From an uncultured Pelagibacteraceae bacterium (GTDB lineage Bacteria; Pseudomonadota; Alphaproteobacteria; Pelagibacterales; Pelagibacteraceae): a stretch of DNA of 64,000 nt. A program made the position numbers and the translations under genes. Shown one piece after another: positions 5,184-14,601 of this stretch (position 1 is its first letter; each line of letters begins with the position of its first letter). The stretch spans positions 1-64,000 of the forward strand of contig CACILM010000001.1 of the NCBI GenBank assembly GCA_902587515.1. Reading direction: 5' to 3'. Under the pieces are notes generated by a model. It saw only the letters and a list, made by a program, of their open reading frames with translations, was not told where the DNA came from and made no database searches.

Positions 5184-5544
5184 TCAAGGATTTATGAAAC
5201 ACCTCGGCGGATTAGAGTTGAAAAAAATTAACGATACTCAATACGAGTTTACAGTAGAGGTTAAAGAAATACATTTGAACACTGGTAAAATTGCACATGG
5301 AGGATTTCTCTCTACTATAGCCGATACTGGAATGGGAACTGCTGCGCATAGAATTGCCGGAGACAAGAGATGTGTAACAATTAATTTAGATATGAAATTT
5401 ATCTCAGTAGGCCAACTTGGCGATAAACTTGTTGGAAAAGTAAAAATATTAAAAAAAACTAAAACGCTAGTGTTTATTAACTGTGAAATATCTAATGTGA
5501 GAGAAATAGTAGCCTCTGCTTCTGGAACATGGAAAATACTTTAA
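5170..5544 (+). CDS. PaaI-like hotdog-fold acyl-CoA thioesterase
   Basis: A 124-residue single-domain hotdog protein of the PaaI/YbgC thioesterase superfamily, expected to hydrolyse small or aromatic acyl-CoA esters in the cytoplasm. The motif HGGFLSTIADTGMGTAA carries the family's catalytic acidic residue on the long helix, followed by the usual NLDMKFI strand. The start is uncertain: ATG at 5170 overlaps the upstream transporter by 14 bases, while ATG at 5155 adds five residues; neither has a clear ribosome site. Its stop overlaps the stop of the convergent TRAP permease gene by a few bases. The substrate is unknown. Confidence 0.8.
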   Translation: MDESNQGFMKHLGGLELKKINDTQYEFTVEVKEIHLNTGKIAHGGFLSTIADTGMGTAAHRIAGDKRCVTINLDMKFISVGQLGDKLVGKVKILKKTKTLVFINCEISNVREIVASASGTWKIL

Positions 5545-7865
5545 ACAACTCTTCTATAATTTAAATATCCAATTACTAATAAAAATAAAAGTGCGAAAGG
5601 ATATACTATTGCTTTATTCGGTCTTTCTGGATTTTCAATTTTAAAATTACTTATGATATCACCCATTTGAATACCAGATTTTTTTGCTTCACCTTTCCAA
5701 TTTAATTTATCAACGGTTAATTGATCATTCTGGTCGACTAATGTTACGCCATATTCTTCAAGGCTATAATTATTTTCAAATTTCCCTTTATCGATAACAA
5801 ATAGTTTATATCTTTCACCATACTCAGTAATTCGTGTGACTTTTATATGAACTTCTTTTGATGGGTCAAAAGATAAATTTTGAATACTTTCTGCCGAAAG
5901 GTTTTGCTCATTAAATTTAGGATAGAATTTACCTAAAACATAATCTGGAGCTAAAAAAGATACAGATATTATTAAAAACGCTATGATCTCATACCATCGT
6001 AATCGATTTATAAACCATTGTTGAGTAGCAGCAGTAAAAACTAAAATTCCAATCAATGAAGTCACTATAACTAATAAAGCTTGCCAAATACTTTCTACCC
6101 CTATTAATAGTAGCTCATGATTAAACAAAAAGACTATTGGTAAAATTCCGGTTCTTAAACTATACCAAATAGCTTGGAGTCCCGTTCTTAAAGGATCGCC
6201 ACCAGAAATTGCAGCTGCTGCATAAGATGCTAAACCAACAGGGGGTGTTACATCTGCCATCAATCCAAAATAAAATACGAATAAGTGAACAGCTATTAAC
6301 GGAAAAATAAAGCCCGAAGCATTTCCAACATCAACTAAAACTGTAGCCATTAGAGAAGCCACTACTACATAGTTTGCAGTTGTAGGAAGACCCATGCCAA
6401 GTAACAAGCAAAGTATAATAGTTAATAAAATTAATATAATTACATTGTCTCTTGCTATCGTTTCAATAACTATAATTAAATTTGTACTTAGACCTGTAGA
6501 ACCCACTGCACCAACAATTATTCCTGCTGTAGCGATTGCGATCCCTACCCCTACCATATTAATTGCGCCTTTTTGTAGACCAACAATAGTTTGATTGTAC
6601 CAGTCAATTAAACCAGTTTTAAAATCTGGATTTTTGATAATACGGCTTACTAAGTTAACTAATATTAAAGATAACGTTGCGTAAAAGATGGAAAAGCCCG
6701 CTGTATATCTCATGTAAACAAGTAAAAAAATCAAAACAAAAATGGGTATTAAAAAATGTAAACCAGACAAAAAAGTTTTCTTTAAGTGAGGTACATCAGC
6801 ATCATCCATTCCTTTTAATCCTAATTTAAGGGCTTCTAAATGAGAGATATAAAATAAAGCGATGTATGAAATGATAGCTGGTAAAAAAGCATGTTTTACG
6901 ACTTCAAAATAAGTAACACCTATAAAACTTGCCATAACAAACGCAGCTGCTCCCATAACCGGAGGCATTATTTGTCCGTTAACAGATGAAGAAACTTCAA
7001 TAGCTCCTGCTTTTTCTTGAGAGAAACCTGTTTTTTTCATTATTGGAATTGTAAAAGTTCCTGTTGTTACAGTATTTGCAATTGAGGAACCTGAAATCAT
7101 ACCAGTCATTCCAGATCCTAATATTGCAGCTTTAGCTGGACCTCCTCTCATTTTGCCAACCATCGCAAAAGCTAAATCTAAAAAATATTTTCCACCGCCA
7201 GCGGTTTCTAATAAAGCTCCAAAGAGTACAAACAAAAATATAAAATCTACTGAAACTCCGATTGGTATTCCAAAAATTGCTTCTTGATCAAACCATTGAA
7301 ATCCTACTAACCTTTTAACAGAAAGTCCGCCGTGAGAAATAATATCAGGAGCATATTTTCCAAAATAAGAAAATAAGAGAAAACAGACTGCAATGATAAC
7401 TAAAGGTAAGCCTATGGCTCGTCTAGTTGCTTCTAATAAAATTACTATACCTATGGCCCCAATTATAAGTTCAACTGGAACTTTTAAACCAAATATTTCT
7501 TTTACTAAAAGAATACCACCTCTATTTACTAAATCGTCATAGAAAAAATAAATATATAAGCAACTCAATGCCCCGGTAATACTAATGATAATATCAATTA
7601 CTGATATCTTTTTACCTCTAACTGCTGGAAAAATTAAAAAAGCTAAAGTTAAAGCGAAACCTAAGTGAATAGCTCTTGCGGGTAAACCTTTGAACATTCC
7701 AAAGTTAAACCAAAAAGGAAATGGAGAGGCATACCAAAGTTGAAAAAATGTCCAAAGAATAGCAATTCCAAAAACTATTTTTAAATGAATGCCTGATAAA
7801 TTTCGAGTTGGAGAAATATCTTCTTGTATTTTATCTTTTATCTTACTTTGAATGTTTTGATTCAT
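5541..7865 (-). CDS. TRAP transporter fused permease, TAXI type (DctQM fusion) with C-terminal DUF3394-like domain
   Basis: Membrane component of a TAXI-type tripartite ATP-independent periplasmic transporter, in which the small (DctQ) and large (DctM) membrane subunits are one 774-residue chain. Many hydrophobic segments are visible, with DctM-type motifs such as GMTGMISGSSIANTVTTG and GQIMPPVMGAAAFVMASF. After the last large-subunit helices, residues ~640-750 form a soluble region ending in GEAKKSGIQMGDII, which resembles a PDZ-like core and fits the DUF3394 domain found in this family, then a final helix. Substrate is unknown; TAXI systems are associated with carboxylates such as glutamate or 2-oxoglutarate. 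The binding-protein gene lies just upstream, separated by a hairpin terminator. Confidence 0.9.
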   Translation of the reverse strand: MNQNIQSKIKDKIQEDISPTRNLSGIHLKIVFGIAILWTFFQLWYASPFPFWFNFGMFKGLPARAIHLGFALTLAFLIFPAVRGKKISVIDIIISITGALSCLYIYFFYDDLVNRGGILLVKEIFGLKVPVELIIGAIGIVILLEATRRAIGLPLVIIAVCFLLFSYFGKYAPDIISHGGLSVKRLVGFQWFDQEAIFGIPIGVSVDFIFLFVLFGALLETAGGGKYFLDLAFAMVGKMRGGPAKAAILGSGMTGMISGSSIANTVTTGTFTIPIMKKTGFSQEKAGAIEVSSSVNGQIMPPVMGAAAFVMASFIGVTYFEVVKHAFLPAIISYIALFYISHLEALKLGLKGMDDADVPHLKKTFLSGLHFLIPIFVLIFLLVYMRYTAGFSIFYATLSLILVNLVSRIIKNPDFKTGLIDWYNQTIVGLQKGAINMVGVGIAIATAGIIVGAVGSTGLSTNLIIVIETIARDNVIILILLTIILCLLLGMGLPTTANYVVVASLMATVLVDVGNASGFIFPLIAVHLFVFYFGLMADVTPPVGLASYAAAAISGGDPLRTGLQAIWYSLRTGILPIVFLFNHELLLIGVESIWQALLVIVTSLIGILVFTAATQQWFINRLRWYEIIAFLIISVSFLAPDYVLGKFYPKFNEQNLSAESIQNLSFDPSKEVHIKVTRITEYGERYKLFVIDKGKFENNYSLEEYGVTLVDQNDQLTVDKLNWKGEAKKSGIQMGDIISNFKIENPERPNKAIVYPFALLFLLVIGYLNYRRVV

Positions 7866-7892
7866 TTTAGCTAAGATACCTTATTCTAAAAA

Positions 7893-7920
7893 AAAAGGCC
7901 CAAAAAATATTGGGCCTTTT
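7893..7920 (-). terminator. Intrinsic terminator/attenuator between TAXI binding protein and permease
   Basis: A perfect stem pairs AAAAGGCCCAA (7893-7903) with TTGGGCCTTTT (7910-7920) around a six-base loop. Read on the minus strand it is followed by a run of nine T (complement of A at 7888-7896), a strong intrinsic terminator. It lies inside the operon, after the binding-protein gene and before the permease gene, so it probably lets only some transcripts continue. On the plus strand the T run is also present, so it may stop read-through both ways. Confidence 0.85.
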
Positions 7921-7942
7921 TTAATTTAACTATAAAGTTGAA

Positions 7943-8947
7943 TTACATTAATCCAGCTTCTTTGTAATACTTAATTGCACCTGGATGTAACGGAGCTGAT
8001 AAACCATCAGCTATCATATTTTTCTTTTCCAGAGGTCCGAAAGCAGGGTGTTGAGCTCTGAAATCATCAAAGTTTTCCATCACTGCTTTTGTTACTAAGT
8101 ATACAAGCTCTTCAGAAACATTAGCACTTGTTACAACAGTAGCTTTTACACCAAATGTTGTAGCGTCTTTTTTCTGATTTGAGTAAGTTCCTTTTGGAAT
8201 TACAGCTTTTGCATAGTAGTCAGCGCCATCAATTAAGCCTTGTACTGGCGCACCAGTTAAATTAATTGGGCTAGCTTTTGCTTTACAAGTAGCTGCTTGT
8301 TCCATAGCACCATTTGGAAATCCTACTGAGTATCCAAATGCATCTATTTTACCGTCGCAAAGAGCTTTTACTTGTTCAGAAGAAGTAAGTTCAGTAGTTG
8401 CTTTGAACATACTCATATCTGCTCCCATAGCTTTCATTAATTCTTCCATAGTTCCTCTTTGACCAGAACCTGGGTTACCGATGTTTACTGTTTTTCCTTT
8501 TAGGCCTTTAAAATTTTTAATTCCAGATTTTTTACTTGCCCAAATTTGGAAAGGTTCATTGTGAACTGAAAATACAGCTCTTAAGTCACTGAACTGTTTT
8601 CCTTCCCATTTGCTTGAACCATTGTAAGCATGGTACTGCCAGTCTGACTGAGCAACACCAAATTGAAACTCACCATCTTTGATTTGTCCAATATTGTAGT
8701 TTGATCCACCTGTTGAAGGTGCAGTACATCTGTAAGCTTTAGCTGTACCTTTTTTTCTACCATGGTCAGCACTTATTGCTGATTTATGTAACATTTTACA
8801 AATAGCGTTACCTGTTTGGAAATAAACTCCAGTAGGTCCGCCTGTTCCTATTGTAAAGAACTCTGCTGATTTAGCGATTGATGTAATGGGGCTTGAAAAA
8901 GCAAACATTACTAGTACCGCTGAAATCAATGACATCATTTTTTTCAT
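7943..8947 (-). CDS. TAXI-family TRAP transporter substrate-binding protein
   Basis: Periplasmic solute receptor of 334 residues that delivers substrate to the fused TRAP permease downstream. The first ~27 residues form a signal peptide (basic KK, hydrophobic core, cleavage near SIAKSA). The mature protein begins with FFTIGTGGPTGVYFQTGNAIC, the hallmark of the TAXI family, and contains GNPGSGQRGTMEELM typical of its second lobe. It is preceded by a GAGGAG ribosome site and by its own promoter-like sequence, and is followed by an attenuating terminator, which fits production in excess over the permease. The substrate cannot be deduced. Confidence 0.93.
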   Translation of the reverse strand: MKKMMSLISAVLVMFAFSSPITSIAKSAEFFTIGTGGPTGVYFQTGNAICKMLHKSAISADHGRKKGTAKAYRCTAPSTGGSNYNIGQIKDGEFQFGVAQSDWQYHAYNGSSKWEGKQFSDLRAVFSVHNEPFQIWASKKSGIKNFKGLKGKTVNIGNPGSGQRGTMEELMKAMGADMSMFKATTELTSSEQVKALCDGKIDAFGYSVGFPNGAMEQAATCKAKASPINLTGAPVQGLIDGADYYAKAVIPKGTYSNQKKDATTFGVKATVVTSANVSEELVYLVTKAVMENFDDFRAQHPAFGPLEKKNMIADGLSAPLHPGAIKYYKEAGLM

Positions 8948-13603: not shown

Positions 13604-14266
13604 ATGGCCAGAAAGAAAAAATCAAAAAAAACAAAGAAATCAAAAATCTTGAAAAAAAGCAAAACCAAAGTTGCTACCAAAGTCATTGAGAAAAAAAATT
13701 TATCTCAAAGTTCTGATGAAAAACCTGAAATTAAAAAAATTAAAAAGCAGGCGACAGAAAAGAAAGCTTACAATTTGAAAGATTTTGTTGTTTACCCAAA
13801 ACATGGAGTTGGGAAAATTACTTCAATTGAAAAAGCTACAATAGGAGATATTGATATTCAGTTTTATAAAATATTAGTAGAAAAAGAAAAATTAACTTTG
13901 ACAGTTCCAATAAACCAGCAGTCTAAATTAAGACCGATCGCCTCGATCAATCAAATTAATAAGTGTATTTCGATTTTAAAAACTAAACCTAAAATTAAAA
14001 GAACTATGTGGAGTAGAAGAGCGCAAGAATATGAGCAGAAAATAAATTCAGGAAAAATATATGAGTTGGCCGAAGTTGTTAAAGACTTAAATAAAAATAC
14101 AGATATTATTGCTGATCAGTCTTATTCTGAGAGACAATTGTTTGAAAAAGCTTACGATAGACTTAAGTCTGAGTTTGAGGCTGTTCTTAAAATTAATCCT
14201 GAAGAAGTTCAAAAGAAAATGGATAAAGCTTTAGGCAGAACTAAAATATCTGAGGTAGTGGAATAA
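13604..14266 (+). CDS. carD: CarD/CdnL-family transcription regulator with Lys-rich N-terminal tail
   Basis: Binds the RNA polymerase beta subunit and stabilises open promoter complexes, mainly at rRNA and growth genes, in characterised relatives. The 220-residue protein has the CarD RNAP-interaction domain from about residue 57 (DFVVYPKHGVGKITSIEKA) and a helical C-terminal DNA-binding domain (TMWSRRAQEYEQKI to the end). The first ~55 residues are a strongly basic tail (KKKSKKTKKSKILKKS and onward) not seen in the compact CdnL proteins. An in-frame ATG at 13565 would overlap fdxA by 35 bases; ATG 13604 is preferred because it starts just after the fdxA stop and gives the usual MARKK start. 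Confidence 0.9.
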   Translation: MARKKKSKKTKKSKILKKSKTKVATKVIEKKNLSQSSDEKPEIKKIKKQATEKKAYNLKDFVVYPKHGVGKITSIEKATIGDIDIQFYKILVEKEKLTLTVPINQQSKLRPIASINQINKCISILKTKPKIKRTMWSRRAQEYEQKINSGKIYELAEVVKDLNKNTDIIADQSYSERQLFEKAYDRLKSEFEAVLKINPEEVQKKMDKALGRTKISEVVE

Positions 14267-14316: not shown

Positions 14317-14391
14317 CTATCTTCTTTTTCTTCTTCTTTTTTTAGCTTTCTTTTTAGTTTTCTTTTTAGCTTTTTTTCTTCTTTTAGCCAT
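14317..14391 (-). CDS. 24-residue Lys/Arg-only micropeptide
   Basis: An ATG at 14391-14389 opens a 24-codon frame ending in TAG (14319-14317). The product begins MAKRRKKAKKK and ends KKRRRKRR: apart from Met, three Ala and one Thr, every residue is Lys or Arg. A strong ribosome site, AAGGGAG, lies seven bases upstream; a TTGACA-containing promoter and a leader hairpin lie further up, and an intrinsic terminator lies just downstream in the same direction. These signals together argue for a real gene. No family is recognised; charge suggests nucleic acid or ribosome binding, but this is inference. It points toward carD, which itself has a Lys-rich tail. Confidence 0.72.
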   Translation of the reverse strand: MAKRRKKAKKKTKKKAKKRRRKRR

Positions 14392-14409
14392 CTTTTCTCC
14401 CTTGTTAGT

Positions 14410-14432
14410 AAACAAATCTTAATGATTCGTTT
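14410..14432 (-). other. Leader hairpin upstream of the micropeptide
   Basis: In minus-strand RNA, AAACGAAUC (14432-14424) pairs with GAUUUGUUU (14418-14410) over nine pairs including one G-U, around an AUUAA loop. It lies between the candidate promoter and the ribosome site of the micropeptide gene, so it could stabilise or regulate the message. No riboswitch or ribosomal-protein target motif is recognised. Confidence 0.5.
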
Positions 14433-14442
14433 GTTATTAATT

Positions 14443-14470
14443 ACATTAATTAATTAAAAATTCATGTCAA
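14443..14470 (-). promoter_or_regulatory. Candidate promoter of the micropeptide gene
   Basis: A perfect TTGACA (14470-14465 on the minus strand) is followed after 16 bases by TAATGT (14448-14443), about 50 bases upstream of the micropeptide ATG. The rest of 14471-14601 is nearly pure A+T and holds only an A/T hairpin near 14519-14547 that may end the acyl-CoA synthetase transcript. Confidence 0.5.
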
Positions 14471-14601
14471 ACATAAATTAATTTGTAAATTTGATTCAAA
14501 ATTTAATTTTTTTAATTATTTTTTTAATTTTTAATAAAATTAAAAAAAGTTAGTAATATCAATGTTTTTTTGAGCAAATTATATAAGTTTTAATTTAATT
14601 T

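Follow-up and report, generated by a model that had tools for sequence, protein, structure and literature searches.

Downstream of carD, the minus strand of the analysed DNA carries a 24-codon gene for a micropeptide rich in lysine and arginine, whose frame is, with near certainty from comparison across genomes, that of a protein-coding gene conserved in Pelagibacterales. The analysed DNA is a stretch of 64,000 bp from an uncultured Pelagibacteraceae bacterium, hereafter called the window. The most likely role of the product, to which we give about an even chance, is that of a polycation resembling a histone H1 tail and acting on the nucleoid.

Identification of the Micropeptide Gene

The frame runs on the minus strand from an ATG at 14391 to a TAG at 14317, and its translation, MAKRRKKAKKKTKKKAKKRRRKRR, contains 12 lysine, 7 arginine, 3 alanine, and 1 threonine residues and no proline. 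The first-pass annotation of this DNA had proposed such a frame together with a full set of expression signals, and the count of 19 basic residues out of 24 agreed with it. On the minus strand the elements follow each other in the order TTGACA, TAATGT, hairpin, AAGGGAG, the 24-codon frame and an intrinsic terminator. The ribosome binding site AAGGGAG was found where it had been placed (14403-14397), as were a leader hairpin of nine pairs, one of them G-U, at 14432-14410, and, beginning 14 bases past the stop, a terminator with a 14-pair stem (14302-14269) and a tail of seven T, which lies between the stops of the two convergent genes. The proposed promoter stood in part: TTGACA (14470-14465) is a perfect -35 element, but the presumed -10, TAATGT (14448-14443, with a 16-base spacer from TTGACA), is a weak match, and the micropeptide promoter was absent from the list of a consensus promoter scan.

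A frame of 24 codons lies below the usual gene-calling limits. Among ATG frames of 20-60 amino acids in the window, this was the sole one with at least 60% lysine plus arginine, and 60 first-order Markov sequences as long as the window contained none of that kind. The coding stretch is 87% A+G, with runs of A; the G+C content is 31% in the window and 14% in the region upstream of the gene (14392-14560). Among CC-licensed PMC papers, searched by titles and the starts of abstracts, no paper about the micropeptide was found.

Conservation of the Gene in Pelagibacterales

The convergent neighbour carD (13604-14266, plus strand; CarD_TRCF_RID and CarD_C domains) was used as an independent anchor for locating micropeptide loci. 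A carD match was present in 81 of 99 genomes of the window's family, all of which contributed to a set of 82 loci (L002-L083, the window's own included), and in 32 of 41 genomes of a sister family in the same order, 30 of which came as loci. For the third set, which probably overlaps with that of the window's family, the 80 best were taken from 188 relatives found in genome_contigs under titles naming Pelagibacteraceae or SAR11. Twelve of the 192 loci reached the contig end before the gene was complete (with at most 129 bases past the carD stop in 11, and with carD itself cut in the other), leaving 180 testable loci. A gene was accepted when it encoded 14-110 amino acids, more than half of them lysine or arginine, with a start resembling MAK, MPK or MEE and a purine-rich ribosome site ahead of it.

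These analyses revealed an intact small basic frame at 179 of the 180 testable loci, the window's included, of which 153 belong to Pelagibacteraceae and 26 to the sister family. The sole broken copy (L067) has a frameshift in an A run within the same gene; among the intact copies, that of L063 has GTG as its start codon and that of L082 contains unread bases. A purine-rich ribosome site of the AAGGGAG type preceded all 179 intact frames; it was part of the finding rule, yet it cost no testable locus. A motif search placed carD at 175 loci, in all of which the two genes converge, their stops being 34-70 bases apart. The first-pass annotation had expected the same tiny frame and ribosome site beside carD in other SAR11 genomes and had named frequent frameshifts or stops in relatives as the result that would count against it. 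The expectation was borne out and a single frameshift was seen, and the comparison thus supports the view that the micropeptide gene is real and carries signals of its own.

A seven-codon motif encoding MAKRRKK was detected once each in 22 of 97 genomes of the order and never with the reversed control; the match in one of these genomes (G018), where the encoded sequence is MAKSRKK, may be due to chance. The motif was found in none of the sister-family genomes, where the protein starts differently. Outside Pelagibacterales, where a further 166 genomes had carD, 47 carD loci (28 and 19) were examined, one of which (L085) offered just 136 bases after carD. Small frames with more than 40% lysine plus arginine occurred in 13 of 48 non-Pelagibacterales loci scanned, and values of at least 50% in two only, namely a frame of 18 amino acids (L252) and one of 24 amino acids with 62% lysine plus arginine (L258), which lies on the carD strand and is therefore not convergent. 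None of these small frames had a MAKRRKK-type start or the promoter box described below. A search for the longer protein across the class gave 0 of 143 but was uninformative, since it also missed the short members in the window's genome and in G009, and a narrow search of viral_contigs with one exact pattern gave no phage copy.

Selection on the Encoded Protein

Among the 153 loci of the family there were 98 different coding sequences encoding 83 different proteins, with a composition of 52% lysine, 25% arginine, and 17% alanine, followed by threonine, proline, glycine, and serine. Past the initial methionine all residues belong to these seven, save 0.1% valine and 0.1% unread. Codon changes were counted on minimum-spanning trees built for each length class, in which edges of up to four differences were kept, giving 32 short branches; three codons differing at more than one base were left out of the count. 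Of the 58 single-base codon changes, 30 were synonymous, 22 exchanged lysine and arginine, and 6 were other changes within the set K/R/A/T/G/S/P, while no change led to any other residue or to a stop. Random changes of the window's coding sequence would place 45% in this last class under equal weights and 37% when transitions are counted threefold. The codon-level test proposed by the first-pass annotation thus returned no acidic, hydrophobic or stop substitution, and selection acts at the level of the protein. On the other side stands a pN/pS ratio over all pairs of only 0.62 (175 pairs of near relatives), which is of little help because the exchange of lysine and arginine dominates it. Taken with the Markov null, the conservation of the frame and the classes of substitution indicate that the gene is not an accident of A-rich DNA.

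The Promoter Region and Its GANTC Site

Promoter counts were made in the 171 of 179 intact loci with at least 100 upstream bases. The sequence CGAATC, which contains the methylation site GANTC, was present in all 171, and the full box CGAATCA (14429-14423 in the window, minus strand) in 170. The first-pass annotation, which had described the leader hairpin, made no mention of this invariant box within it. In 170 of 171 loci TTGAC stands 37-42 bases ahead of CGAATC, the exception being L142, where it stands merely 10 bases before, and the promoter is supported by this fixed spacing in relatives. Many near relatives also have a TAAWGT-like sequence at the place of the -10, as judged by eye. As a single pattern, TTGAC-N34-40-CGAATC was found in 169 of the 192 Pelagibacterales loci, losses at contig ends being counted. 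In other Alphaproteobacteria, TTGAC-N34-40-CGAATCA did not occur at any of 47 usable carD loci. The hairpin pattern ACGAATC-N3-14-GATTYGT had one occurrence in the window's genome. Placed from the position of the -35, the transcript would start near 14436, and the GANTC of the box would therefore lie at about +8, inside the predicted transcript.

GANTC is depleted in the window, with 121 sites observed against 187 (sd 14) expected, and its density was 1.9 per kb in coding and 2.5 per kb in intergenic DNA, with 8 intergenic sites too small a sample for comparison. Nine GANTC sites around the micropeptide gene were tested in 56 long named loci. The site of the box was kept in 39 of 39 comparable loci, at a mean context identity of 0.78. 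Six other sites, in contexts of 0.80-0.87, were kept in 4/39, 3/37, 35/49, 31/46, 34/51, and 8/56, and the two remaining ones, present at every locus compared, lie within a tRNA gene (identity 0.97-0.99). The second GANTC of the promoter region, upstream of the -35 (14493-14497), is partly conserved (31 of 46 comparable relatives). By eye, a third GANTC, as TGAATC, was seen right after TTGACA in many near relatives.

The site CcrM methylates is GANTC. SAR11 has a CcrM homologue, and the distribution of GcrA follows that of CcrM (PMC3973325). Pelagibacter DNA is methylated at GANTC, and 42 of these sites were free of methylation in every sample (PMC9516812). The window's genome contains gcrA (GcrA match, E 8.7e-39) and one match to N6_N4_Mtase (E 1e-68). 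The latter Pfam family is broad, since a control search with it gave matches in 11 of 14 reference genomes, and the identity of this adenine methylase as CcrM is putative; the control search with GcrA matched Sulfolobus as well as Caulobacter. A survey of 2010 that found no ctrA in Pelagibacter can be read as grouping it without CcrM and GcrA (PMC2877005), a grouping that is not borne out by the GcrA and methylase matches of this genome and by PMC3973325.

Criteria applied to GcrA targets are YGAKTCK, an extended form of GANTC, and a GcrA peak no more than 40 bp away from the start site (PMC7987155). The reverse complement of the box, TGATTCG, fits YGAKTCK; this is modest support, because the same paper found no preference beyond GANTC apart from a weak bias toward a preceding C in Brevundimonas (PMC7987155). 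The region resembles the GcrA/CcrM promoters of Caulobacter and Brevundimonas in having a GANTC, conserved in relatives, in the promoter/start region, and in the presence of gcrA and an adenine methylase gene in the genome. It differs from them in that CGAATC is invariant, is part of a leader hairpin, and lies downstream of the predicted start. GcrA sites are often nearer the -10 and -35. We infer that GANTC and GcrA may time the synthesis of the micropeptide as a form of cell-cycle control. The box may also be kept as RNA, because the A at the N of GANTC is invariant and the box has a pairing partner, and methylation therefore need not be the reason for its conservation, which fits a role as DNA, as RNA or as both.

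Structure of the Leader RNA and Terminator

The 5' leader hairpin of the window is AAACGAATC-ATTAA-GATTTGTTT. A stretch of 168 nt, from just before this hairpin to the terminator, folded better than 200 of 200 shuffles (z -4.75), and both the terminator and the leader hairpin were among the helices of the fold. In minimum free energy predictions, a local hairpin pairing the T and C of the box was found in 111 of 112 distinct leaders; the exception (L029) could form it and folds otherwise. In 91 leaders (type A) CGAATC faces GATTC/T, and in 21 (type B) the pairing is shifted to ATCAC.../...GTGAT. Type B showed two-sided, compensatory changes at several pairs (e.g., T-A and A-T), and its pairing of 91.5% exceeded the maximum of 87.2% in 500 shuffles of 13 distinct arm pairs, the outer pairs being partly fixed by the anchors. 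The paired fraction of type A, 0.865, equalled that of its shuffles (mean 0.866), and covariation in this type is unusable, because the partner GATTY served in sorting the leaders.

The motif CTCC or CCTC occurred in 28 of the 112 distinct leaders, namely in 15 of 21 of type B and 13 of 91 of type A, the sister family being among the latter; it is absent from the window's own leader. As an anti-Shine-Dalgarno sequence it is a possible block on the ribosome site. In some genera (L047, L056, and L076) the sequence GCTCCAAACTTTAAAGGGAGGAACGGAG before the start codon is unchanged, and it is possibly a conserved hairpin of anti-Shine-Dalgarno and Shine-Dalgarno sequences. A terminator satisfying the search rule followed the gene at 178 of the 179 intact loci, and the last one (L210) has, by eye, a terminator with a longer loop. 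At gathering thresholds, the known RNA families detected in the window were tRNA only, and the main text of a study on structured RNAs of SAR11 does not mention carD (PMC2704228).

Longer Homologues and Resemblance to H1-like Proteins

The gene at the same place in the sister family encodes 40-99 amino acids (26 loci, with 85 amino acids in 16), as in MEELKVIFAKARKKAKKKAAPKKK..., whereas lengths in the window's family are 19-58 amino acids. The sister-family proteins consist of Lys-Ala-Pro repeats (50% lysine, 25% alanine, 10% arginine, and 7% proline). The two forms were taken as homologous because they share place, promoter, box, and hairpin. The micropeptide had no Pfam or NCBIfam match at E up to 1, a weak test with 24 low-complexity residues, and a PDB sequence search with it gave none. 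Six longer homologues, likewise of low complexity, matched no H1-like family in Pfam or NCBIfam at E up to 10, the hits being unrelated and at E 0.76 or worse; the best PDB sequence match of the long form, a viral histone doublet, was not convincing (E 0.15). The likeness to H1 is thus one of composition, there being neither a family in these databases nor a convincing solved structure behind it, and the micropeptide appears to stand at the short extreme of a basic, H1-like family that neither Pfam nor NCBIfam covers.

Histone H1-like proteins of bacteria include Hc1 and Hc2 of Chlamydia and BpH1 of Bordetella. With the C-terminal domains of AlgP and PhaF the family, most plainly its longer members, shares a low-complexity chain rich in lysine and alanine, in part also proline, with a variable number of repeats, and the sister-family homologues share the repeat style KAAPKKK/KPAKKK; in composition these homologues resemble the tail of histone H1 and the C-terminus of AlgP as described in PMC9239181. 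The window's member differs from these proteins in its 24 amino acids with 3 alanines and no proline and in having no separate folded domain, and the sister-family forms differ in opening with a short mixed segment (MEELKVIF...).

Protamines are very short proteins of sperm, dominated by arginine and lysine. The micropeptide is alike in these respects, but it is bacterial, dominated by lysine, free of cysteine and found in no sperm-like context, and no homology is claimed. The tiny ribosomal proteins bTHX, bL36, bS22, and bL37 are comparable in size, charge, and the character of a micro-gene; unlike them, the micropeptide varies freely in length and has no family match, by the weak test mentioned above. 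It contains neither cysteine nor histidine, and therefore has no zinc site of the bL36 type.

Possible Function of the Micropeptide

The function, which the first-pass annotation had left open, is tilted by the longer H1-like homologues toward binding of nucleic acid or the nucleoid. On balance, there is roughly a one-in-two prospect that the product is a minimal H1-tail-like polycation acting on the nucleoid, whose synthesis may be tied to the cell cycle through GANTC. In the mechanism proposed here, the mRNA would have its 5' end a few bases ahead of the leader hairpin, extend for about 165 nt and stop at the terminator that separates the gene from carD. The box would form the opening of a 5' RNA hairpin which, with CTCC/CCTC in some genera, may tune the life or translation of the mRNA, and methylation by CcrM together with GcrA at GANTC may tie synthesis to chromosome replication. 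The polycation made, of 19-58 amino acids in the window's family and 40-99 in the sister family, would bind DNA, or nucleic acid generally, by its charge and would help to compact or buffer an AT-rich nucleoid. A bolder form of this proposal, put forward tentatively and on the doubtful side, holds that it is perhaps the smallest known chromatin-like protein, a Lys/Arg 'protamine' of 19-25 residues, kin to a longer H1-like form, that would package the Pelagibacterales chromosome and whose synthesis would keep pace with replication by way of the GANTC/GcrA promoter, the box doubling as the 5' arm of an mRNA hairpin.

Polycations could just as well have rRNA, mRNA, polyphosphate or acidic proteins as their target. 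A basic micro-component of the ribosome sitting in rRNA, with the leader hairpin as the site of autogenous control, would agree with the size and charge of the micropeptide, which are typical of tiny ribosomal proteins, and the structured leader with anti-Shine-Dalgarno CTCC/CCTC in a quarter of distinct leaders (28/112) suggests translational control; but a span of 19-99 amino acids with free insertion of Lys/Ala repeats is unlike a ribosomal protein fitted residue by residue, no ribosomal gene was present among the neighbours scanned, and the weak family search at E up to 1 also gave nothing, which makes this role unlikely. It is somewhat less probable still that the target of the chain is mRNA, sRNA or polyphosphate granules and not the chromosome. 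Composition alone cannot tell phosphate polymers apart, and AlgP, an H1-like protein, provides a precedent by associating with polyphosphate granules (PMC9239181), but the five neighbours, which encode CarD, a ferredoxin, a TerB-like protein, a helicase, and an acyl-CoA ligase, include no granule gene.

The two readings that deny the product a function of this kind are both very improbable. Classical attenuators have a stretch of one or two kinds of amino acid ahead of a terminator, and a leader peptide with Lys/Arg codons could sense charged tRNA-Lys or tRNA-Arg and control a downstream gene; but at each of the 175 loci measured the transcript meets the 3' end of carD, in the window about 4 kb separate the gene from the next long frame on the minus strand, and homologues reach 99 amino acids. 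The attenuator peptide was ruled out by the convergent carD and by the want of a co-directional gene directly after the terminator. That the frame is a purine-rich spacer open by chance, or that the locus makes just a small RNA, would accord with the A+G bias and A runs of the coding stretch and with a transcript that is a structured RNA of about 165 nt. This is countered by the frame kept in 179 of 180 loci, by the lack of any acidic, hydrophobic or stop change among 58, and by the empty Markov control, and a chance or purine-rich artefact was ruled out by frame conservation and substitution classes. Part of the micropeptide, a piece of ten residues, occurs in a paper on an antimicrobial peptide (PMC10847306); an antimicrobial role was set aside because 24 residues leave no space for an export signal.

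SAR11 bacteria rank with the commonest cell types of the sea and have few known regulators. A conserved, unnamed basic micropeptide with a fixed promoter of the cell-cycle type would be a core part missing from the SAR11 parts list, its promoter is a clean candidate for a SAR11 GcrA/CcrM regulon, and through the micropeptide the compaction of a streamlined genome (31% G+C in the window) can be tested directly. Tryptic proteomics tends to destroy a peptide rich in lysine and arginine.

Further Observations at the carD Locus

Contig ends pile up at the micropeptide gene: in 19 of 78 named loci (among L165-L244) the contig ended within about 500 bases past the carD match, as compared to 3 in the next 2 kb beyond. 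Assemblies may break in the strongly AT-rich DNA upstream of the gene, which may be hidden as a result. Four of the 16 genomes of the window's genus (G018, G058, G079, and G098), which are 90-98% complete, had no carD match at E <= 0.001. In one 9.6-kb contig (G030:C6), two inverted carD matches of equal score were found, at 5245-5871 (minus strand) and 7674-8300 (plus strand), which is likely an assembly palindrome; one of the two entered the set of loci. The CarD of the window has a lysine-rich N-terminal extension of about 50 residues, MARKKKSKKTKKSK... (13604-13760), and many other alphaproteobacterial CarD matches start only near residue 36-58 of the query; judging from these alignments, CarD itself may have gained a polybasic tail beside the gene of a polybasic micropeptide.
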